A stretch of DNA of 33,440 nt from Pseudomonadota bacterium (GTDB taxonomy: Bacteria; Pseudomonadota; Alphaproteobacteria; Rhodospirillales; Magnetospirillaceae). The notes under the pieces were generated by a model. It ran no database searches. It worked only from the letters and a program-made list of their open reading frames with translations, and had not been told where the DNA came from. Shown in pieces: positions 18,391 through 33,440 of the stretch (positions are counted from its first letter, which is position 1; each line of letters begins with the position of its first letter). Made by a program: the position numbers and the translations under genes. The stretch is from assembly GCA_021818185.1 (NCBI GenBank), contig JAKAFA010000005.1:1-33440 (forward strand), in the 5' to 3' direction.

Positions 18391-19587
18391 TCACTTGGGC
18401 GGATTGAGCTTCGGCCAGGGGTCCTGAACCATCGGTATGGTTTCGACCTCGACGTTGGCGAGCTTGCCGTTCACCCGCTCCAGCTTGCGGATGTACATGT
18501 TCTGCACGATGTCGCGGGTCTGGGGGTCGATCATGATCGGTCCGCGCGGGCTGTCGTCGTCGCGCCAGCCCTTGAGGAGCTGCATGGTGCGGTCGGGATC
18601 GATCTTGCCGTGCTGGGCCTTGACCACGTGGAAGATGGCGGCCATGCCGTCCCAGGCGCCGACAGCGAACGGGCTGGGGACGGCATCGGGGCCGTATTCC
18701 GCCTTCCACGCCGCCACGAAGGCCTTGTTGGCCGGCCGGTCGGCCACCGCGGAATACAGGCCGATGGTGACCACGCCGTCGGGGACGTTGCCCATCTCGG
18801 CCAGTTCGTTGTCGGGAACAATGTCGCCGGTGCCGATCAGCCGGACGCCGGCGGCGGCCAGGCCCAGGTCGGAATAGGCCCGCATCAGGGCGGCGGCGTC
18901 CCGGCTGCCGGGGACGAAGACGAACAGGGCGTCGGGCTTCTCATCCTTGATGCGTTGCAGGAACGGCACGTAATCGGCGTTCTTCAGCGGCATCTCCACA
19001 TGGCCGACCACCGTGCCGCCGGCCTCGGTGAAGCCCCTGGCGAAGGCGGCTTCGGCGTCGTGGCCGGGGCCGTAATCGGTCACGGCGATATAGGCGCGCT
19101 TGATGCCGTGGTGGCCGGCCCATTGCCCCAGGGGATAGCTCTGCTGCCACAGCGTCTGCGACACGCGCACCAGATAGGGCGACAGCCGGATGGACGCCGA
19201 GGTGGCGGCGTTCATGATGATCACCGGCACCTTGGCCTCGGTGGCCAGCGGCGCGACGGCGTTGATGTTGGGGGTGAAGTAGAATCCGGCCAGCAGGTTG
19301 ACCTTGTCGCGGGTGATCAACTCGCGGGCCAGCCGCTTGGCCATGTCGGGATTGGGGCCGGTGTCGTCGCGCCGGATCAGGTCCAGCTTGGTGTCGCCCA
19401 GTTCCTTTCCATGCAGTTTCATGTACAGGTTGATGGCCTCGTCCATCTGCTTGACCGAAGCCGCCGCCTGGCCGGAATAGGCGAGGATCACCCCGACCTT
19501 GACGGTTTCCGCCGCGCGTGCCGGCGGCGTCGCCGCCACCGTTGCGCCGAAGGCGAGTGCGCACAGCAAAGTTCCCAGTCTTGCCAT
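18391..19587 (-). CDS. livK: Periplasmic substrate-binding protein, LivK/HAAT type
   Basis: This is a 398-aa solute-binding protein with a Sec signal peptide (MARLGTLLCALAFGATVAAT, cleavage expected after ARA near residue 25). The mature protein has the type-I two-lobe periplasmic fold, beginning VKVGVILAYSGQAAA, with later FYFTPNINAVAPLATEAKVP and GPGHDAEAAFARGF. Homologues in aromatic catabolic clusters bind aromatic or alicyclic acids, but ligand residues cannot be read here. The ATG at 19587 has GGGAGGAA upstream. It heads the operon, and an operator for the local TetR lies 56 nt upstream of the start, so expression is probably induced by the pathway intermediate. Confidence 0.9.
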   Translation of the reverse strand: MARLGTLLCALAFGATVAATPPARAAETVKVGVILAYSGQAAASVKQMDEAINLYMKLHGKELGDTKLDLIRRDDTGPNPDMAKRLARELITRDKVNLLAGFYFTPNINAVAPLATEAKVPVIIMNAATSASIRLSPYLVRVSQTLWQQSYPLGQWAGHHGIKRAYIAVTDYGPGHDAEAAFARGFTEAGGTVVGHVEMPLKNADYVPFLQRIKDEKPDALFVFVPGSRDAAALMRAYSDLGLAAAGVRLIGTGDIVPDNELAEMGNVPDGVVTIGLYSAVADRPANKAFVAAWKAEYGPDAVPSPFAVGAWDGMAAIFHVVKAQHGKIDPDRTMQLLKGWRDDDSPRGPIMIDPQTRDIVQNMYIRKLERVNGKLANVEVETIPMVQDPWPKLNPPK

Positions 19588-19953
19588 ATCGTTCCTCCCT
19601 GATCGCTGTTTGCGGCGCGGATTCTACGTCCGTCGGTCCGATTGAATGATCCTTCGTTCATGAAGGTGCCGTCAAGCCTTGCCGCGGAGCTACCGCCCGC
19701 CCCGCGCTGAGCTGTCGGGATGGGAAATCGGCAACCGGCTGAAAGATGATCGATACCCCCTCCCAAAGATCGTCCCCTCACGATATTGTTCACCACAGAA
19801 ACAAAATGCAAGGGCAGATATCGTTCTGTTGCCAATATACATAACGATGCCGGATATCGTCGGCCGGACGGCCGATCCATGGACCGAGCAGAACATTGGC
19901 GGCGGGCGTCGCGGAACGCCGCCTGGTTCTTCAAGAGGAGGCCTGTCGGGCGG
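19588..19953. other. Intergenic region between livK and ligase
   Basis: This 366-nt stretch holds the livK promoter and operator at its left end. About 19741-19860 is visibly richer in A+T than its surroundings and contains repeated GATAT(C/T)GTT-like words. Near 19898-19923, GGCGGCG/CGCCGCC can form a 7-bp stem downstream of the ligase stop; it lacks a U tract. The small ORFs in the track here have no recognisable domain or convincing ribosome site, so I call no gene. Confidence 0.6.
19643..19660 (-). promoter_or_regulatory. TetR-type operator 1, livK promoter
   Basis: TGAATGA-TCCT-TCGTTCA matches the local consensus TGAATGA-N4-TCATTCA with one mismatch. Read toward livK, a TTGACG box (19675-19670) lies 9 nt upstream, so the operator would cover the spacer and -10 region of the livK promoter. 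Repression by the adjacent TetR protein is inferred. Confidence 0.65.
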
Positions 19954-21597
19954 TCACAATTGCCGGAGCCGGAAGCGCTGGATCTTGCCCGTGGCGGTGC
20001 GGGGCAGGGCGTCCAGGAATTTGATGTCGCGCGGATATTTGTAGGGCGCGATGGTCGCCTTGACGAAATCCTGAATCTCGCGGGCAACATCGTCTCCCGG
20101 CCAATAACCGTCCTTCAGCACGACGCAGGCCCGCACGACGTTGCCGCGGGCCGGGTCCGAGACGCCGACCACCGCGCATTCCTCGACCTTGGGATGGTCG
20201 AGCACCACCCGTTCGACTTCGGAGGGAGAGATATTGTAGCCGGCCGACACGATCATGTCGTCGGCCCGGTCGACGTACCAGAACCAGCCGTCGCTGTCCT
20301 GTTCGGCGATGTCGCCGGTCAGGTTCCAGCCGTTCTTCACGATTCCGCGCTGCCGCTCGGCGTCGGCGAGATAGCGGCAGCCGGTCGGCCCGCGCACCGC
20401 CAGCCGCCCCCGATTACCGGGAGGCAGGGGGCGGAATTCGTCATCGAGCACGCAGGCGGTATAGCCCGGCACCACCTTGCCGGTCGACCCCACCCGCTCG
20501 ACCGCCAGGGTCTCGGAAATGAAATGGGTCAGCAGCTCCGACATGCCGATGCCGTTGACGATCCTGAGGCCGGTGGCGTCATGCCAGGCCTGCCAGACGT
20601 CGAGGCGCAGATGTTCGCCGGCCGAGGTGCATTTGCGGATCGAGGCGAGATCGTAGCGCCCGGCCTCGGTCCGCATGGCGTGGTAGAGGGTGGGCACCGA
20701 ATACAGGCTGGTGACCCGGTGGCGCTCGACCGCATCGAGAATCAGCTCGGGGGTGGGGCGGGGCACCAGCACCGCCGTGGCGCGGTAGCGCAACGGATAG
20801 AGCAGGAACGCGCACAGCCCGTAGGTGAAGGCGAAGGACGGCGAGCCGCAGACCACCTCGTCGCCGTCCACCGGATAATGGTGCGGCCAGCAATCGCATA
20901 CCGCCAGCAGGTCGCGGTGGAAATGCATCGCGCCCTTGGGGTTGCCGGTGGTGCCCGAGGTGAAGGTGATCAGCGCGATGTCGTCGGCCGCGGTGGCGAC
21001 CGGGGCGAAGGCGGCGAGCTTGCCCTCGGCCGCGCGGTCAAGGCCGGACTCGGCGGACGATCCGCGGCCCAGGGGGCTGAAATAGCCGATATGGGCCAGT
21101 CCCGGCGCCTGGGCGCGGGTCGCCTCCATCTCTTCGGCTAGGCTGCCTTCGCACAGGGCGATGGCGATCTGCGCCTTGTCGACGATATAGGCCAGTTCAC
21201 GGGCCCGCAGCAGCGGCATGGTGGTCACGCAGATGCCGCCCGCCCGCAGCACGGCCAGCCAGCAGGCTGCCGCCATCGGATTGTTGCCGGTACGCAGCAG
21301 GACCCGGTTGCCGGGGATCAGGCCGTAATCCTCGACCAGTACCCGGGCGATGCGCTGGGCTCGGTCGAGCAGATGGGCGAAGGTCCACACCCCGTCCTCG
21401 TAGAGGAAGGCCGGCTTGTCGCCGAAACCGGCGACCACCGCGGCGTCCAGCAGGGCGGCCGACGCGTTGAGGCGGTCGGGGTAGCCGGCCAGGTGGGGCG
21501 CCGAATAGTCGAGGTCGGGCCACAACTCGGCGGGGGGCAGCATTTGACGGGCAAAGGGGTCGAGATGGGCGCTCGGCACGCCACCGGGCAGGTGCAT
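19954..21597 (-). CDS. Aryl-CoA ligase, 2-aminobenzoate/benzoate-CoA ligase family
   Basis: This AMP-forming acyl/aryl-CoA synthetase of 547 aa would activate a carboxylic acid to its CoA thioester at the cost of ATP to AMP. Seen motifs are the phosphate loop FTSGTTGNPKGAMHFH, GWNLTGDIAEQDSDGWF, the hinge region VDRADDMIVSAGYNI and the C-terminal catalytic lysine in PRTATGKIQRF (about Lys538). The N-terminal pattern DPFARQMLPPAELWPDL and PGNRVLLRTGNNPM is, from memory, closest to 2-aminobenzoate-CoA ligase (AbmG-like) and the wider benzoate-CoA ligase group; the true substrate is unproven. The ATG at 21597 has GGAGGGAG about 8 nt upstream. It is divergent from tetR, with its own operator and a TTGACC -35 box. 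Confidence 0.85.
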   Translation of the reverse strand: MHLPGGVPSAHLDPFARQMLPPAELWPDLDYSAPHLAGYPDRLNASAALLDAAVVAGFGDKPAFLYEDGVWTFAHLLDRAQRIARVLVEDYGLIPGNRVLLRTGNNPMAAACWLAVLRAGGICVTTMPLLRARELAYIVDKAQIAIALCEGSLAEEMEATRAQAPGLAHIGYFSPLGRGSSAESGLDRAAEGKLAAFAPVATAADDIALITFTSGTTGNPKGAMHFHRDLLAVCDCWPHHYPVDGDEVVCGSPSFAFTYGLCAFLLYPLRYRATAVLVPRPTPELILDAVERHRVTSLYSVPTLYHAMRTEAGRYDLASIRKCTSAGEHLRLDVWQAWHDATGLRIVNGIGMSELLTHFISETLAVERVGSTGKVVPGYTACVLDDEFRPLPPGNRGRLAVRGPTGCRYLADAERQRGIVKNGWNLTGDIAEQDSDGWFWYVDRADDMIVSAGYNISPSEVERVVLDHPKVEECAVVGVSDPARGNVVRACVVLKDGYWPGDDVAREIQDFVKATIAPYKYPRDIKFLDALPRTATGKIQRFRLRQL

Positions 21598-21627: not shown

Positions 21628-21647
21628 CTGAATGATTATTCATTCAG
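21628..21647 (-). promoter_or_regulatory. TetR-type operator 2, ligase promoter
   Basis: CTGAATGATTATTCATTCAG is a perfect inverted repeat with 8-bp arms and a 4-nt centre, 31-50 nt upstream of the ligase start. On the minus strand TTGACC (21661-21656) precedes it by 9 nt to the core, and TAATCA inside the operator is 17 nt from that box and could serve as -10. It closely resembles the published Bacillus subtilis FadR box TGAATGAMTANTCATTCA. Confidence 0.8.
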
Positions 21648-21702
21648 TACCGCCCGGTCAAGCCCTGAGAAACGTCGGTCGGGAGGCTTGACGGAGAAGC
21701 GC

Positions 21703-21720
21703 CGAATGAACAATCATTCG
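21703..21720 (+). promoter_or_regulatory. TetR-type operator 3, tetR promoter
   Basis: CGAATGA-ACAA-TCATTCG is a perfect 7-bp inverted repeat with a 4-nt centre. TTGACG (21688-21693) lies 9 nt upstream on the plus strand, placing the operator over the -10 of a tetR promoter, which implies autoregulation. Its centre is 74 bp from operator 2, about seven helical turns. Confidence 0.75.
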
Positions 21721-21813
21721 TTGCCGGGCCGATGCGCCCCGTGGCGCCGGCCGGGGCCAGTCCTGTGCCGGGGCCAGTCCTGTGCCGGGGCCAGTCTTGT
21801 GTCTGCCCGGCAA
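21721..21813. repeat. Three 17-bp tandem repeats inside a 9-bp inverted repeat
   Basis: The unit CCGGGGCCAGTCCTGTG occurs three times head to tail at 21751-21767, 21768-21784 and 21785-21801, the last with one change. The array is bracketed by TTGCCGGGC (21721-21729) and its exact reverse complement GCCCGGCAA (21805-21813). It lies in the tetR leader between operator 3 and the start codon, and could fold as one long stem-loop in the mRNA. Confidence 0.85.
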
Positions 21814-21860
21814 CCAGGGTATGCCGGGGCCGATCGAAACAACGGGGTAGGATGACGGTG

Positions 21861-22559
21861 ATGGCGACGCAGCTTCCCGCCGTGAAAAGCCAGGTGACCG
21901 ACGAGGCATTGGTCGAGCGGCGGCGCAACCAGATCGTCGCGGCGGCGGTAGAACTGTTCGCCCATCAGGGCTATTACCGCACCACCATTCTGGAGATCGC
22001 CCGCAAGGCCGGGGTCAGCAGCGGCCTGATCTACCAGTACGTCGCCGACAAGGAGGACGTGCTGCTGCTGTCGTTGCTCAGCGTACTCGATTCCTACCTC
22101 AAGGAGATCCCGGCGGCGCTGGCCGGGCTGACCGATCCGCTGGAACGCTGCTGTGTGGCGGTGAACGCCTACTGCCGGGTGGTCGACCAGCGGCGCGAAG
22201 CGACGGTGCTGGCCTACCGCTCCACCAAGTCGCTGCCCGGCGAGCGGCGGGAACTGGTCAAGAACGCCGAACTGGAAACCAACGCCCTGGTCTCCGCCTG
22301 CATCCAGGATTGCATCGGAGCGGGGCTCTTCCGCCCCGTCAACGTCGAACTGGTCACCTACCAATTGGTCGCGTTCGCCCATACCTGGGCGCTCAAGCAC
22401 TGGCGGCTGAAAACCCTGTGCAGTCTGGACGAATACATCGCGCAGGGCTTCGATTTCATCGCCCACGCGCTGCTGACGGCCAAGGGCCGGCGCCGGTATG
22501 CCAAGCTGCAGGCCGAGGGGCGCCTTCCGGCTCCGTCGCCGGAGCCGGCCGAGGATTAG
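21861..22559 (+). CDS. TetR/AcrR-family repressor, FadR-like
   Basis: This is a 232-aa regulator. The N-terminal helix-turn-helix spans roughly residues 18-65, with RTTILEIARKAGVSSGLIYQYVADKEDVLL. The rest is an all-helical ligand-binding domain without diagnostic residues. I chose the ATG at 21861 because GGGGTAGG lies 9 nt upstream; an ATG at 21852 is also possible, but the track start at 21732 would place the tandem repeats in the protein and is unlikely. Operators of one design occur at this gene, the ligase, livK and two beta-oxidation operons, so this is the likely pathway-specific repressor, probably released by an acyl/aryl-CoA. The esterase gene follows 4 nt after its stop. Confidence 0.9.
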   Translation: MATQLPAVKSQVTDEALVERRRNQIVAAAVELFAHQGYYRTTILEIARKAGVSSGLIYQYVADKEDVLLLSLLSVLDSYLKEIPAALAGLTDPLERCCVAVNAYCRVVDQRREATVLAYRSTKSLPGERRELVKNAELETNALVSACIQDCIGAGLFRPVNVELVTYQLVAFAHTWALKHWRLKTLCSLDEYIAQGFDFIAHALLTAKGRRRYAKLQAEGRLPAPSPEPAED

Positions 22560-23560: not shown

Positions 23561-23612
23561 TTGACATCCTCGGCCAAAATGAATGACTATTCAGTCAGTG
23601 AATGGCCATTCA
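23561..23612 (+). promoter_or_regulatory. Promoter with TetR-type operator 4 and adjoining palindrome
   Basis: TTGACA (23561-23566) is a consensus -35. Operator 4, TGAATGA-CTAT-TCAGTCA (23580-23597), has one mismatch from the local consensus and overlaps the expected -10. One base later, TGAATGGCCATTCA (23599-23612) is a perfect 14-bp palindrome built from nearly the same half-sites but without the 4-nt spacer. Together they sit just upstream of the catabolic operon. Confidence 0.75.
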
Positions 23613-23624
23613 GGCGAGGGGCCG

Positions 23625-24398
23625 ATGACCGAGGCGGTGGTGACCTGCGAAGCCCGTGGTGCGGTCATGGTGCTGACTCTGGCCGCACCGCCGGTCAACG
23701 CCCTGTCCACCCGTCTGATCGACGCCCTGCATCGCGCCCTGGATGCGGTGCGGGCGGCACCGGGGACGCGGGTCCTGCATATCCGCGCCCAGGGCAAGGT
23801 GTTCTGCGCCGGGGCCGATCTGGCCGAGATGCGCGCCAATCTGGCCGATCCTGGGACGGTTGAGGCGCAGATCGCCTTCGTCCGCGACCTGCAAGGCGCT
23901 TTTTCCCGCCTGGAGGGCATGCCGATGGCTACCCTTGCCGAAATCGGCGGCGCCGCCATGGGCGGCGGGCTGGAACTGGCCCTGGCCTGCGACTTGCGCG
24001 TCGCCGCCGCCGAGGCCCGGCTGGCCCTGCCCGAAGCCAATCTCGGCCTGATCCCCGGGGCCGGCGGCACCCAGCGGCTGACCGCCCTGTGCGGGCCGGC
24101 CCTGGCCAAACGGCTGATCCTGGGCGCCGAGGCGGTAACCGGCCAGACCGCCGCCGACCTCGGCTTGGTCCATTGGGCGGTACCGGCGGCGGACCTGCCG
24201 GGCTTCGCCGCCGGGCTGGCCGAGCGGCTGGCCGGCCTGCCCCGCGCCGCGATCGCCGCCGCCAAATCCTGCATCGCCGCTGCCCTCGACCCCGCCCGCG
24301 ACGGTTTCGCCGAGGAATTGGCGGCGACCCGCGACCTGCTGCTCAACGAACCCGAAACGCAAAGCCGGGTGGCGGCCTTCCTGGCCGGCCGCCGCTGA
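23625..24398 (+). CDS. Enoyl-CoA hydratase
   Basis: This crotonase-fold enzyme of 257 aa is expected to hydrate a trans-2-enoyl-CoA (or cyclic 1-ene-carboxyl-CoA). Both catalytic glutamates are present: Glu117 in GGGLELAL and Glu137 in LPEANLGLIPGAGGTQ, 20 residues apart as in the rat enzyme (144/164). The oxyanion loop is FCAGADLAEM. I start at ATG 23625 (MTEAVV) because it follows a GAGGGG ribosome site; the track start at 23583 would translate the operator. It is the first gene of a five-gene operon. A BadK-like role in ring-acid oxidation is possible but not demonstrable here. Confidence 0.88.
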   Translation: MTEAVVTCEARGAVMVLTLAAPPVNALSTRLIDALHRALDAVRAAPGTRVLHIRAQGKVFCAGADLAEMRANLADPGTVEAQIAFVRDLQGAFSRLEGMPMATLAEIGGAAMGGGLELALACDLRVAAAEARLALPEANLGLIPGAGGTQRLTALCGPALAKRLILGAEAVTGQTAADLGLVHWAVPAADLPGFAAGLAERLAGLPRAAIAAAKSCIAAALDPARDGFAEELAATRDLLLNEPETQSRVAAFLAGRR

Positions 24399-28326: not shown

Positions 28327-28423
28327 ATGGCGTAATCGGCTGCGGCGGGCGGCGAGATCGGCTCACACTCCGAGCGTCTTCCTCCGCATCTCAAGTCCCG
28401 CACGGTGGGTGCGCGGAGCGGAG

Positions 28424-29479
28424 ATGACGTTCATGCAGGTAGAATTTTCCGGGGCTGCCGCGGGCGGCCTGCGCGTGAAAGTGGCGGGACTCGGCGCGGC
28501 ATTGATCGCGTTCAATGTTCTCGCCTGGGCCTGGGCGCTGGTCGCCTTCCGGGAATATCCCCTGCTGATGGGCTCGGCTCTGCTGGCCTACAGTTTCGGC
28601 CTGCGGCACGCGGTCGATGCCGATCATATCGCCGCCATCGACAACGTGACCCGCAAGCTGATGCAGGAGGGCAAGCGCCCGGTGGCCATGGGGCTGTTCT
28701 TCTCGCTGGGGCACTCGACCGTCGTCGTTCTGCTGTCGCTGCTGGTGGCGACCACGGCGTCGGCCTTCCAAGACCGTTTCGAGGGTATGAAGGCCATCGG
28801 CGGCCTGGTCGGCACCAGCGTTTCCGCCTTCTTCCTGTTCGCCATCGCCGCCGCCAACATGGTGATCCTGGCGGGCACCTGGCGGAGCTTCCAGGGCATC
28901 AGGGCCGGCCGGCCGCTGGCGGAGGAGGGCCTGGATATCCTGCTGGCCGGCGGCGGCATGATGGCCCGCCTGTTTCGCGGCCTGTTCCGCCTGATCGGGC
29001 GCTCCTGGCATATGTACGGCCTGGGGCTTCTGTTCGGCCTGGGCTTCGAGACCGCGACCGAAGTGGGCCTTCTCGGCGTTTCGGCGGCGGGCGCGTCGAA
29101 CGGCCTGTCGCCCTGGTCGATCATGGTTTTCCCGGCGCTGTTTTCGGCTGGAATGGCGCTGGTGGATACCGCCGACGGCGTGCTGATGCTGGGGGCCTAT
29201 GGCTGGGCTTTCGTCAAGCCGGTGCGCAAGCTCTATTACAACCTGACCATCACCGCGCTGTCGGTGCTGGTCGCGGTGGGGGTCGGCGGCATCGAAACCC
29301 TGGGCCTGGTCGGCGCCCAGTTCAAGCTGAACGGCGTTTTCTGGCAGGCGGTCGGCGCCCTCAACGACAATTTCGGCCTTCTCGGCTATGGCATCGTCGG
29401 GCTGTTCGCCGTGGGCTGGGCGGTCTCCCTGCTGATCTACAAGATCAAGCGCTATGACGAGATCGAAGCGGCCGCCTGA
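28424..29479 (+). CDS. NiCoT-family cobalt/nickel permease
   Basis: This is an inner-membrane secondary transporter of 351 aa with about eight hydrophobic segments. The family signature RHAVDADHIAAIDN (HX4DH metal site in the second helix) and LGFETATEV are both visible, together with FSLGHSTVV. NiCoT proteins carry Co2+ and/or Ni2+; the cobalamin riboswitch just upstream argues that cobalt for B12 synthesis is the physiological cargo. I chose the ATG at 28424, which has GGAG upstream, over the track's GTG at 28409, which would overlap the ribosome site. It is convergent with the 3-hydroxyacyl-CoA dehydrogenase gene, with only 14 nt between the stops and no obvious bidirectional terminator. 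Confidence 0.93.
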   Translation: MTFMQVEFSGAAAGGLRVKVAGLGAALIAFNVLAWAWALVAFREYPLLMGSALLAYSFGLRHAVDADHIAAIDNVTRKLMQEGKRPVAMGLFFSLGHSTVVVLLSLLVATTASAFQDRFEGMKAIGGLVGTSVSAFFLFAIAAANMVILAGTWRSFQGIRAGRPLAEEGLDILLAGGGMMARLFRGLFRLIGRSWHMYGLGLLFGLGFETATEVGLLGVSAAGASNGLSPWSIMVFPALFSAGMALVDTADGVLMLGAYGWAFVKPVRKLYYNLTITALSVLVAVGVGGIETLGLVGAQFKLNGVFWQAVGALNDNFGLLGYGIVGLFAVGWAVSLLIYKIKRYDEIEAAA

Positions 29480-29493
29480 CCGTTTCCGCCCGT

Positions 29494-31035
29494 CTACGGC
29501 TGGCCCTCGGGGGTCAGCAGCGATACTCCCAGTTGGGCGCGGCGGCGCAGCCAGGGGCTGGGCCGCCAGCGCGGCTCGCCGGTCAGGGCGTAGAGCGTGG
29601 TCAGCACCTCCAGCACCCGCCCCGGCCCCAGCCAGTCGCCCCATTCCAGGGGGCCGCGCGGATAGCCCAGTCCGCGGGTCACCGCGGCGTCGATGTCGGT
29701 AGGGGCGGCGACGCGCTGCTGGGCGATGTCGCAGGCGACGTTGACGATCATCGCCAGCACCCGCTGGCTGACGAAGCCGGGACTGTCGGCGATCACGCTG
29801 ACCGGCGTGCCATCGCAGCCCAATGCCCGCCGGGCGGCGGCCCGCATGTCCGGCCGGGTCACCGGCGTCGCCATCGCCACGCGGCGGCGGTCAAGCTCCA
29901 GCAGCGGATCGACGGCCAGGGTCCGCTCGGGGTCGAGCCGCTCGGCTAGGGCGGCGGCGGTGGCGTCGGCCCCCAGGGGAAGCACCAGGCACAGGCTGCC
30001 GCGCCCCGGCCGGGGGCCGGTTTCCACCTCGACGCCGGCGGCGGCCAGGATGGCGGCAAGCCGGAGGGACTGCGCGCCGCCGGCCCGGCTGATCCAGACC
30101 GGCCGGGCCGGGGAGTCCGGTGCCGGCGGTTCAGTCGGCGGTTCGGGGGGGCGCACGATCCGGCCGTCGTGGTATTCGTAGAATCCCCGCCCGGTCTTGC
30201 GCCCCAGCAGCCCGGCCGCCACCCGGGGGGCGACCAGATGCGAGGGGCGGAAGCGCGGCTCGGCGAAGAACTGGTCGAACAGCGAGCCCATCACCGCCGC
30301 CGAAACGTCCAGCCCGACCAGATCGAACAGTTCGAACGGCCCCATGCGGAAGCCGGCCTGCTCGGTCAGGATGCGGTCGATCTCGGCCGGGGCGGCGACG
30401 CCCTCGGCGGCGATGCGCAACGCCTCCGGCCCGAAGCCGCGGCCGGCATGGTTGACCACGAAGCCCGGCGTGTCGGCCACACTCACCGGCAGATGGCCGA
30501 AGCGGTCGGCCAGATCGCGCAGGAACGCCACCGTCGCGGGCGCGGTGCGGCAGCCGGCTACCACCTCGACCAGGCGCATCAGCGGCACCGGATTGAAGAA
30601 ATGGAACCCCGCCACCCGGTCGGGATGCCGCGTCGCCGCCGCCACCGCCGAGACCGACAGGGACGAGGTGTTGGTCGCCAGCACGCAGGAGGCGGGCACC
30701 GCCTCCTCCAGGCGGGCGAACAGCCGCCGCTTGGCTTCCAGGTCCTCGGCGATGGCTTCGACCACCACGGCGCAGCCGGCGAAGGCGGAACCCGGCTCGG
30801 TCGCCAGATGCAGCCGGCCGGCCGCCTGTTCCGCCGCCTGCGGGGTCATCCGGCCCTTGGCCGCCAGCCGCCCGAAAGTCTCGGCCAGCCCGTCGCGCGC
30901 CGCGTCGGCGGCCTCGGGCCGGGCGTCGGTCAGCACCACCCGGCAGCCGGCGGCCAACGCCACCTGGGCGATGCCGCGGCCCATGGTGCCGGCACCCACC
31001 ACCCCCACCGTCAAATCCGGCACGGCAGCGTCCAT
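29494..31035 (-). CDS. 3-hydroxyacyl-CoA dehydrogenase, PaaH/PaaC type
   Basis: This is a 513-aa NAD-dependent dehydrogenase acting on (S)-3-hydroxyacyl-CoA. The Rossmann loop is GVVGAGTMGRGIAQ (about 11-24), followed by VEAIAEDLEAKRRLF, the catalytic-His region GFHFFNPVPLMRLVEVV and the first C-terminal domain (DTPGFVVNHAGRGF). After a Pro-rich linker (PPEPPTEPPAPDSP near residue 295) comes a divergent region and a second C-terminal-like domain (DSPGFVSQRVLAMIVN). This two-copy layout and length are as in PaaH of phenylacetate degradation. The start at 31035 lies 2 nt after the hydratase stop, so the genes are co-transcribed; the 784-aa track ORF is a shadow extension. The product would be a beta-ketoacyl-CoA needing a thiolase, absent here. 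Confidence 0.92.
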   Translation of the reverse strand: MDAAVPDLTVGVVGAGTMGRGIAQVALAAGCRVVLTDARPEAADAARDGLAETFGRLAAKGRMTPQAAEQAAGRLHLATEPGSAFAGCAVVVEAIAEDLEAKRRLFARLEEAVPASCVLATNTSSLSVSAVAAATRHPDRVAGFHFFNPVPLMRLVEVVAGCRTAPATVAFLRDLADRFGHLPVSVADTPGFVVNHAGRGFGPEALRIAAEGVAAPAEIDRILTEQAGFRMGPFELFDLVGLDVSAAVMGSLFDQFFAEPRFRPSHLVAPRVAAGLLGRKTGRGFYEYHDGRIVRPPEPPTEPPAPDSPARPVWISRAGGAQSLRLAAILAAAGVEVETGPRPGRGSLCLVLPLGADATAAALAERLDPERTLAVDPLLELDRRRVAMATPVTRPDMRAAARRALGCDGTPVSVIADSPGFVSQRVLAMIVNVACDIAQQRVAAPTDIDAAVTRGLGYPRGPLEWGDWLGPGRVLEVLTTLYALTGEPRWRPSPWLRRRAQLGVSLLTPEGQP

Positions 31036-31037
31036 GT

Positions 31038-31808
31038 TCAGCGTCCCTCGTAGCTGGGCCGGCGGCGCTCGACGAAGGCCCGCATGCCCTCCTTCTGGTC
31101 GCGGGTGTCGAACAGCAGTTGGAACGCCTTGCGTTCCAGCATCAGGGCGGTATCCAGCGGGGCGTCCATGCCGGCCAGCATCACCTCCTTGATCTGCTGC
31201 ACCGCCAGGGGCGGCATGGCGGCGATGGTGGCGGCCAGGTCCAGGGCGGCCGGCAGGACGTCGGCGTCGGGGACCACCTGGCTGACCAGCCCCATGGCCT
31301 CCGCGGTGCGCGCATCGACCGGCCGGCCGGTCAGCAGCATCAGCATCGCCTTGTACTTGCCGACCGCGCGGGCCAGCCGCTGCGTGCCGCCCGCCCCCGG
31401 CATGATGCCGACCCGCACCTCGGGCTGGCCGAACTGCGCCGATTCGCCGGCGACGATGATGTCGGCATGCATGGCCAACTCGCAGCCGCCGCCGAGGGCT
31501 AGGCCCGCCACCGCCGCGATGACCGGCTTGGGGCATTGGGCGATGGCCCGCCACAGCAGATGGGTCCGGCGCAGCATCATCTCGGCGGCGCCGGCCTCGG
31601 CCATCTCCTTGATGTCGGCTCCGGCGGCGAAGGCCTCGGGATCGCCGGCCAACACGATGACGCGCACCGCCTCCGCGGCGGCGAGGGCCAGGAAGTGCTC
31701 GGCCAGGGCGGTCCGCACGGCGGTGTTGAGGGCGTTCCTGGCCTCCGGCCGGTTGATCCGGACAACGGCGACGGCGTCGCCGCGATGCTCGACCACCACT
31801 TCGCCCAT
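31038..31808 (-). CDS. Enoyl-CoA hydratase, PaaF-like
   Basis: This is a 256-aa crotonase with both catalytic glutamates, Glu110 in GGGCELAMHADI and Glu130 in GQPEVRVGIMPGAGGTQ, and oxyanion loop FAAGADIKEM, so a genuine trans-2-enoyl-CoA hydratase is expected. Together with the downstream dehydrogenase it makes the second and third beta-oxidation reactions. The ATG at 31808 has AGGAGG about 8 nt upstream. It is first in a two-gene operon behind operator 5, 26 nt before the start codon. Confidence 0.92.
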   Translation of the reverse strand: MGEVVVEHRGDAVAVVRINRPEARNALNTAVRTALAEHFLALAAAEAVRVIVLAGDPEAFAAGADIKEMAEAGAAEMMLRRTHLLWRAIAQCPKPVIAAVAGLALGGGCELAMHADIIVAGESAQFGQPEVRVGIMPGAGGTQRLARAVGKYKAMLMLLTGRPVDARTAEAMGLVSQVVPDADVLPAALDLAATIAAMPPLAVQQIKEVMLAGMDAPLDTALMLERKAFQLLFDTRDQKEGMRAFVERRRPSYEGR

Positions 31809-31833: not shown

Positions 31834-31851
31834 TGAATGATTGGTCATTCA
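31834..31851 (-). promoter_or_regulatory. TetR-type operator 5, hydratase/dehydrogenase operon
   Basis: TGAATGA-TTGG-TCATTCA is a perfect 7-bp inverted repeat with a 4-nt centre. On the minus strand TTGACG (31865-31860) lies 8 nt upstream, and CAATCA inside the operator is 16 nt from it as a possible -10. It is about 10 kb from the tetR gene, extending the regulon past the permease. Confidence 0.75.
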
Positions 31852-31929
31852 TTCGGCGGCGTCAACCGGCTTTTCGCGGCACCGCCGTGCCGTTCGGCCG
31901 GGGTCCTTGGCCGGAGGCGCGGCGGGCGG

Positions 31930-32676
31930 TCAGCCCTTGGCCGCAGGGGTGGGGATCAGGGCGAGCAAGTCGTTGAAGGTATCCGGCAACTGGCCGCCGT
32001 CCTTCAGTTCCATGGCGACGTCCAGGATATGGACGGCTTCCCACCGCGACGGGAAGCCGCCCATGATCTGGGCGATGCCGATGATCTCCAGGATCTCCGC
32101 CGGGCTTACATTGGTTCGGGTCAGAAGCTCCAGCGTATGAAGGCGGACCAACCGGCGTTTCCGCACCACAAGGCTCATCAGCAGGGCGACGAGATTGTAG
32201 AATTTCAGGTTGGCTTCGAGGTCGCTGCTCAGGCGGGGCCAGGATTCGAACCGTCTCCAATACTTGGTGTAGGTGTCGAACAGGAGATAGGTGTCATCGT
32301 CGGCCTGGGCGAGAACGTACAGGGCGATGGCCTTGACCGCGTCGATGACGGATTCCGGCGCTTTGGCCAGGACCGCGCCTTCGATATGGGTCAGCGCGCA
32401 GACCTCGCAATTGTCGACGATGGCCGCGCTGTAGATGAGGATTTCGCTGATATAGCGCTCGTGGGAGAAGACGCCGCGGGAGACCAGAAGACGGGCGAGG
32501 TCGAGGAGGGCGTCGCCCATTTCGACGCCCTTGCGGGCCAGCTTGGCCTCCGGCCCGTCGGTTTCGGCGCCGGCTTCGACGTATTCCTGCATCGCGGTGA
32601 TCAACGCGTTGGCGTTCTTGGCGATGCTGTGGGCATCGCGGATGTCCAGCCGTCCATACGGGAAGTCATGGGTCAT
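31930..32676 (-). CDS. AhpD-like / carboxymuconolactone decarboxylase-fold protein
   Basis: This helical protein of 248 aa has the AhpD-type redox signature: Glu79, then Cys90-x-x-Cys93 and His97 in NCEVCALTHIEG. AhpD members use this CxxC...H set for peroxidase-type chemistry, while other family members are decarboxylases. The C-terminal half (LTRTNVSPAEILEIIGIAQ and following) looks like a second, cysteine-free copy of the helical unit. I start at ATG 32676 with GGAGAGG upstream; the track start is a GTG 13 codons earlier. No signal peptide. It lies downstream of a Crp/Fnr regulator on the same strand. A role in oxidative or anaerobic stress is plausible, not shown. Confidence 0.75.
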   Translation of the reverse strand: MTHDFPYGRLDIRDAHSIAKNANALITAMQEYVEAGAETDGPEAKLARKGVEMGDALLDLARLLVSRGVFSHERYISEILIYSAAIVDNCEVCALTHIEGAVLAKAPESVIDAVKAIALYVLAQADDDTYLLFDTYTKYWRRFESWPRLSSDLEANLKFYNLVALLMSLVVRKRRLVRLHTLELLTRTNVSPAEILEIIGIAQIMGGFPSRWEAVHILDVAMELKDGGQLPDTFNDLLALIPTPAAKG

Positions 32677-32863
32677 GAAGCGCCTCTCCGGGGCCTGTCG
32701 CCGCAATTCCGGCACGGTGTCAGCCCTCGGACATTAGCGCAACCTAAAATTCTGTTACCGGATGTTCCGGGCCGCGATCGCCCCCCTGGCGCCGGCGTGA
32801 GCGGCCCCGCAAGGGGCGCGACACGCAGAATCTAGAGGCGGTTCCGCCTGAGCGGAAACGACG
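32677..32863. repeat. Intergenic region with REP-like palindromic element
   Basis: Just after the regulator gene, TTCCGC-CTGA-GCGGAA (32842-32857) sits inside TCTAG...CTAGA (32831-32868), resembling in style the dispersed CTAGAG-CGGTTCCG palindromes I associate with alphaproteobacterial genomes. A second stem, GCCCC-GCAA-GGGGC (32804-32817), has a GNRA-type loop. The segment 32733-32757 (containing TAAAATTCTGTTA) is the only A+T-rich part and is the probable promoter area for the AhpD-like gene. CCGGA-TGT-TCCGG (32758-32770) is a small palindrome beside it. Confidence 0.45.
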
Positions 32864-33440
32864 CTAGATCTGTTCTTCGCCCTCGTGGCAGAAGGCGGCC
32901 AAGCGGTGCGGATCGGCGATGGTGACCAGGGTGCCGCGGATTTCCACCCCTTCGGCCCGCAGGACGGTAAAGGCGCGCGACAGGGTCTCGCTGCGGATGC
33001 CGATGCGCGCGGCGATGACGCCCTTGGAATGGGCCAGGCGGACGATGGCGGGGCCGTCGCGGCGCGGAAGCTGGCCGATCAGATAGAGCGCCAGCCGTTG
33101 CGCCGCCGATTTCAGCTTCAGATCCTTGATCTCGCGCACCAGCATCCGGTAATGGGAGGCCAGGGACGTCACCATCGACATCGCCAGATCGGGATTGCCG
33201 CGGATGTCGCGCCGCAGTTTCTCGCCCGGCAGGGCGAGGATCCGGCTGTTCTGCAAGGCGTGCGCCGCCATCAGGTAGGGGCGGTCGGTGAGAACGGCGG
33301 CGGCGATAAAGACTTCCCCCGGCTTGAGGATTTCCACCACCGTCTCCTCGCCGTCGCTGACCGCTCCCACCAGCCCCACCTGGCCTTCCAGCACGATATG
33401 CAGGAAGCGGGGGGATTGCCCCTGGTGAAAGATCACCTCG
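32864..33440 (-). CDS. Crp/Fnr-family transcription regulator, 5' end outside window
   Basis: This is the C-terminal 191 codons or so of a CRP/FNR-type regulator. The visible N-terminal part is the cyclic-nucleotide-binding-like beta barrel (EVIFHQGQSPRFLHIVLEGQV, then LKPGEVFIAAAVL), followed by a dimerisation helix and a winged HTH whose recognition helix has the ETLSR motif common in Crp/Fnr/Dnr proteins. Only one cysteine (near the C-terminus, AFCHEG) is visible, and the Fnr-type N-terminal cysteine cluster region is outside the window, so oxygen sensing cannot be judged. The track start (GTG at 33436) is probably internal since the frame is open to the edge. It may control the AhpD-like gene downstream. 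Confidence 0.85.
   Translation of the reverse strand, partial: EVIFHQGQSPRFLHIVLEGQVGLVGAVSDGEETVVEILKPGEVFIAAAVLTDRPYLMAAHALQNSRILALPGEKLRRDIRGNPDLAMSMVTSLASHYRMLVREIKDLKLKSAAQRLALYLIGQLPRRDGPAIVRLAHSKGVIAARIGIRSETLSRAFTVLRAEGVEIRGTLVTIADPHRLAAFCHEGEEQI

Follow-up and report, generated by a model that had tools for sequence, protein, structure and literature searches.

TTGAC boxes precede all five TetR-type operators of a putative acyl-CoA catabolism regulon in a Magnetospirillaceae genome, with a candidate -10 element inside the operator

The DNA analysed here (the window) is a stretch of 33,440 nucleotides from contig JAKAFA010000005.1 of an alphaproteobacterium of the family Magnetospirillaceae (assembly GCA_021818185.1). 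It encodes a TetR-family regulator of FasR/FadR-like type (21852..22559, + strand), in which a TetR_N domain (PF00440, E=3e-14, 53 bits against a cut-off of 24) is accompanied by a TetR_C_24 domain that also scores above its cut-off. Palindromes precede tetR and its proposed targets and occur together with this gene; the regulator is predicted to bind them. On the - strand the targets are a livK-type ABC substrate-binding protein (18391..19587), a benzoate-CoA-ligase-like acyl-CoA ligase (19954..21597) and a second hydratase operon (29494..31808) consisting of an enoyl-CoA hydratase (31038-31808) and a 3-hydroxyacyl-CoA dehydrogenase (29494-31032). The first hydratase operon lies on the + strand; it begins with an enoyl-CoA hydratase (23625..24398) and continues with an SDR, a second hydratase, an acyl-CoA dehydrogenase and a second SDR. 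Three further genes of this region are without an operator: one for a NicO-type nickel/cobalt transporter, located between the two beta-oxidation operons (28409-29479), and, beyond the operator of the second hydratase operon, a carboxymuconolactone-decarboxylase-like gene (31930-32715) and a Crp/Fnr-family regulator (32864-33436).

Each of the five GAATGA-N4-TCATTC operators in the window (19644, 21630, 21704, 23581 and 31835) has a TTGAC on its 5' side in the direction of the gene. On the - strand, the livK operator (19644..19659, GAACGAAGGATCATTC in gene direction, 11/12) is preceded by the -35 box TTGACG at 19670..19675, the ligase operator (21630..21645, GAATGAATAATCATTC, 12/12) by TTGACC at 21656..21661, and that of the second hydratase operon (31835..31850, GAATGACCAATCATTC, 12/12) by TTGACG at 31860..31865. 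On the + strand, the tetR operator (21704..21719, GAATGAACAATCATTC, 12/12), a predicted site of autoregulation, follows TTGACG at 21688..21693, and the operator of the first hydratase operon (23581..23596, GAATGACTATTCAGTC, 11/12) follows TTGACA at 23561..23566. The sequence-only reading of this DNA had described a TTGAC at a fixed short distance before every operator, and all five boxes and operators were located where it had placed them, including the two outermost boxes (livK and second hydratase operon). The word "fixed" is slightly too strong, as four boxes lie at N9-N10 from the 16-bp core (N10 for livK, ligase and tetR, N9 for the second hydratase operon) and the fifth, that of the first hydratase operon, at N14. 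The earlier counts of 9, 9, 9, 13 and 8 nt refer to the same sites and are one smaller because an 18-mer (TGAATGA..TCATTCA) was used instead of the core. The 60 nt upstream of each operator hold a single TTGAC in gene direction, and the 60 nt downstream hold none. The divergent ligase and tetR operators (21630-21719) have their centres 74 bp apart, which corresponds to approximately seven helical turns, and therefore dimers bound to them would occupy the same face of the DNA.

The same reading had proposed that the operator itself supplies the -10 element of the ligase, tetR and second hydratase promoters. We scanned 12.5 kb on both strands for the sigma-70 consensus, without using the operators, and obtained five sigma-70-like sites where 0.7 are expected; four of these are the livK, ligase, tetR and second hydratase promoters, each with a -10 at operator positions 9-14 and with spacers of 18, 18, 18 and 17 nt, respectively. 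The proposed -10 elements are GATCAT for livK (19646..19651, - strand), and AATCAT for the ligase (21632..21637, - strand), tetR (21712..21717, + strand) and the second hydratase operon (31837..31842, - strand). A TTGAC followed, after a spacer of 16-18 nt, by a -10 with A at position 2 and T at position 6 is thus found at four of the five promoters, with 9/12 matches; the hexamer nATCAT agrees with TATAAT at 4/6 positions when n is not T, and carries the A at -11 and the T at -7. The proposal is therefore supported, and extends to livK, but its hexamer was one base off: AATCAT or GATCAT at 17-18 nt takes the place of TAATCA or CAATCA. The latter register (positions 8-13) comes second best, with at most 2/6 matches to TATAAT, and was rejected because its -11 base (position 9) varies between A, G and C while position 10 is nearly invariant.

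The symmetry of the operator is broken at this element. Position 10 is A in 25/26 of the N9/N10 sites, and the mirror T at position 7 is present in none of these, even though positions 8 and 9 vary (positions 7-10 read ATAA, ACAA, ACCA, AGGA, CCAA, ACGA or ATGA). Since a symmetric dimer is blind to the direction of the gene, this asymmetry points to a promoter element, and an A that is kept while its neighbours vary is to be expected if the -11 A is essential. A sign test on the -11 A gives 6e-8, a value that overstates independence, as the sites represent five target groups with shared ancestry. An association between spacing class and the base at position 10 (A in N9/N10, T in N13/N14; P=3.5e-6) was dropped as independent proof of the -10 register, because the compact palindrome of the N13/N14 class (TGAATGATCATTCA) alone fixes the T and its register is ambiguous by 4 nt. 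The base before TTGAC is C in 24/33 sites.

The first hydratase promoter combines a perfect -35 box, TTGACA, with a weak -10, GACTAT (23585..23590, + strand; spacer 18), which lies inside the operator, falls below the scan threshold and matches at only 3/6 positions, with the A and the T kept. The operators of this operon are compact (TGAATGATCATTCAGTC) and allow two readings offset by 4 nt, N9/N10 or N13/N14, since TGAATGA repeats with a 4-nt period; in the window the shifted register is 23577-23592 (9/12), N10 from the box. Either register leaves the -10 at 17-18 nt on the same DNA, and the outlying spacing of 13-14 nt may thus be a mere matter of register. A degenerate tandem second operator (23600..23615, + strand, GAATGGCCATTCAGGC, 9/12) is located 19 nt downstream of the first. 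Such tandem second sites are also found after the first operator at other loci (L021, L037, L053-L059), and in relatives they often follow the ligase and hydratase operators, at approximately two helical turns from the first; for the ligase operator they occur in many genomes of the Magnetospirillum group.

We consider it highly probable that these elements form a local regulon in which a FadR/FasR-type TetR repressor covers the -10 of the ligase, liv uptake and beta-oxidation promoters and of its own, and is probably released by an acyl-CoA. Each target would be transcribed from a sigma-70 promoter with TTGAC as its -35 and a -10 within the 16-18 bp operator. Once bound there, a repressor dimer would occlude this -10 and block RNA polymerase, a form of steric repression that the box-operator geometry suggests. 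An acyl-CoA intermediate of the pathway would then bind the repressor, which would leave the operator and allow the promoter to fire, and the tetR promoter, controlled in the same way, would provide negative autoregulation. A repressor that covers the -10 is a textbook principle, and the layout, though well conserved, is ordinary for a TetR repressor. It does give a promoter and regulon map, in which start sites are predicted to a precision of a few bases, for an apparently undescribed repressor of acyl-CoA catabolism in a Magnetospirillum-related group, and the asymmetric operator lends itself to asking how a single sequence can serve a repressor that is symmetric and a polymerase that is directional. 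We would put at even chances a broader proposal, namely that the composite operator/-10 is regulon-wide, that repressor specificity and promoter strength must co-evolve, with the dyad broken at the -11 A, and that some promoters are tuned by tandem operators lying about two helical turns downstream.

Points against the mechanism are that AATCAT matches TATAAT at only 4/6 positions, that the N10 class needs an 18-nt spacer, and that FasR is an activator. In view of -10 matches of only 3-4/6, and of a TAGAAT located farther downstream at livK, the TTGAC boxes could be real while the -10 lies outside the operator, as would be the case with another sigma factor or a downstream element, leaving the operator to act as a roadblock only. 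We regard this as unlikely, as sigma-70 spacing puts a -10 in the operator at every site, and the asymmetric -11 A is found in nearly all N9/N10 sites. The predicted window promoters moreover fit the patterns reported for Sinorhizobium, CTTGAC-N17-CTATAT (PMC2873474), and for primary promoters of Magnetospirillum gryphiswaldense, cTTGcc / TATaaT with starts 6-9 nt downstream of the -10 (PMC9549626).

The models nearest to the regulator are FasR, BetI and FadR_Bac. Its best NCBIfam match is the FasR model NF053731, with E=2.2e-16 and 60.2 bits against a cut-off of 330, and the Bacillus FadR model NF053878 gives E=1.6e-13 and 50.8 bits against a cut-off of 200; because these scores are far below the equivalog cut-offs of FasR and FadR, ligand and specificity are not transferable from either. 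A Terasakiella contig is among the nearest TetR matches. Bacillus FadR (YsiA) is a TetR repressor of beta-oxidation released by long-chain acyl-CoA, and the system described here is similar to it in regulator family and in having an acyl-CoA ligase and beta-oxidation genes as targets. It differs in that the regulator is not an equivalog, the host is an alphaproteobacterium, and a liv-type transporter and a benzoate-CoA-ligase-like enzyme are among the targets. The operator of Bacillus FadR, which we take to be TGAATGAnTAnTCATTCA, is nearly identical to those of the window. Literature searches with the operator string returned nothing relevant.

The regulator also resembles the structures 5gp9 and 3whb, both of which are FadR structures (PMC6449355). 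In Thermus thermophilus, FadR of the TetR family has sites within or over the core promoters of fatty-acid genes, as here, but its operator, TTRNACYNRGTNYAA, is different (PMC5597230). FadR of Sulfolobus acidocaldarius is likewise a local repressor, of a 30-kb fatty-acid cluster, which recognizes a 16-bp dyad, is released by a ligand and binds its own control region (PMC6449355), although host and transcription machinery are archaeal. By analogy with these TetR-type FadR proteins, an acyl-CoA intermediate is the likely inducer (PMC6449355, PMC5597230). The FadP, LiuQ and PsrA regulons of Proteobacteria, likened here by description, are also governed by TetR regulators of fatty-acid or branched-chain catabolism, FadP and LiuQ being described as unique to betaproteobacteria (PMC5343134). 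FasR of Mycobacterium tuberculosis is similar to our regulator by model match and senses acyl-CoA. It activates fatty acid synthesis (PMC7382501). The window regulator could accordingly be a FasR-like activator whose site at the -10 or spacer helps polymerase to open promoters with weak -10 hexamers. We find this very unlikely: the -35 boxes match well, in relatives, as here, the sites overlie the -10, a position at which a bound dimer would keep polymerase out, and TetR regulators are mostly repressors (PMC7382501).

We examined the conservation of the layout in a comparison set of 119 related genomes, 24 of which encode a tetR orthologue. A TTGAC at N9..14 from a perfect operator is present in 16/24 genomes with the orthologue and in 1/95 without it (P=4e-13), and in that single orthologue-less genome a TetR-like gene lies just downstream of the site. 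Of the perfect operators in orthologue-bearing genomes, 23 of 27 carry the box, versus 1 of 14 elsewhere (P=1.6e-6), so that the boxless operator matches of orthologue-less genomes are a useful internal control. These P values overstate independence because the sites share ancestry. When any distance up to 30 nt between TTGAC and a perfect operator is allowed, 20 genomes are recovered, mostly with N9-N10, and 24/38 matches cluster at these two among the 31 allowed spacings. Of the other eight genomes with the orthologue, five carry a degenerate site (TTGACATGC...) at a distance of 4-5 kb from tetR, and this site resembles the hydratase-operon promoter.

The gene types that recur after the sites in relatives are the ligase, livK, ech1-SDR-ech2, ech3 and tetR. 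At two loci (L025, L026) one operator lies between divergent ech3 and tetR, and the TTGAC of the second promoter is at N23, so that its -10 abuts the operator. Outside the order, one genome carries two N13 sites next to a TetR with 54% identity. The operators could instead be bound by some other regulator of the genome, with the adjacent tetR a bystander. Binding by TetR is a prediction, and no site was found in 3/24 orthologue-bearing genomes; nevertheless, this alternative deserves hardly any credence, given the strong co-occurrence of tetR orthologues with box-operator sites, which are clustered around tetR, and the fact that the three perfect operators found genome-wide are all inside the window.

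That the placement of the boxes is unlikely to be due to chance, as the sequence-only reading had argued, is borne out by probabilities within the window, by shuffling and by recurrence in relatives. TTGAC is rare in this region of 70% G+C, with 43 occurrences on both strands of the 33-kb window; boxes at all five operators would arise by chance with a probability of 1.8e-12 when N8-14 is required and of 1.2e-8 when a TTGAC anywhere within 40 nt is accepted, and in 20,000 Markov shuffles never more than two of five operators had a box. Coincidence or selective counting, which the unequal spacings (9, 10, 10, 10 and 14) might suggest, is therefore a negligible prospect, with a probability of ~1e-8 or less, and is already refuted by the independent recurrence of the box-operator spacing in relatives.

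Elsewhere in the same genome a sixth case was identified, a divergent copy of livK on contig C169 with TTGACG-N10-GAACGAAGGATCATTC. Its promoter is 86% identical to that of livK in the window over 335 bp, with box and operator kept, and this degree of identity indicates that the gene is a paralogue and not the same locus. This copy belongs to a second livK-H-M-G-F transporter cluster on that contig (L001, G000 contig C169, 1-4671). Operator-like matches on contigs C331, C28, C127, C200 and C129 are without a box and mostly within open frames, and are probably due to chance.

N8 sites in three genomes of another alphaproteobacterial family (G160, G286 and G382) were set aside, since they probably belong to a different regulator whose operator is similar. 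There TTGAC-N8-GAATGAAC-N2-TCATTC occurs in five places (L085, L086, L087, L090 and L091), each time with TAGAATGAAC. Finally, the leader of tetR in the window, approximately 128 nt from predicted start site to start codon, contains about three tandem copies of GCCGGGGCCAGTCCTGT (21751-21801).
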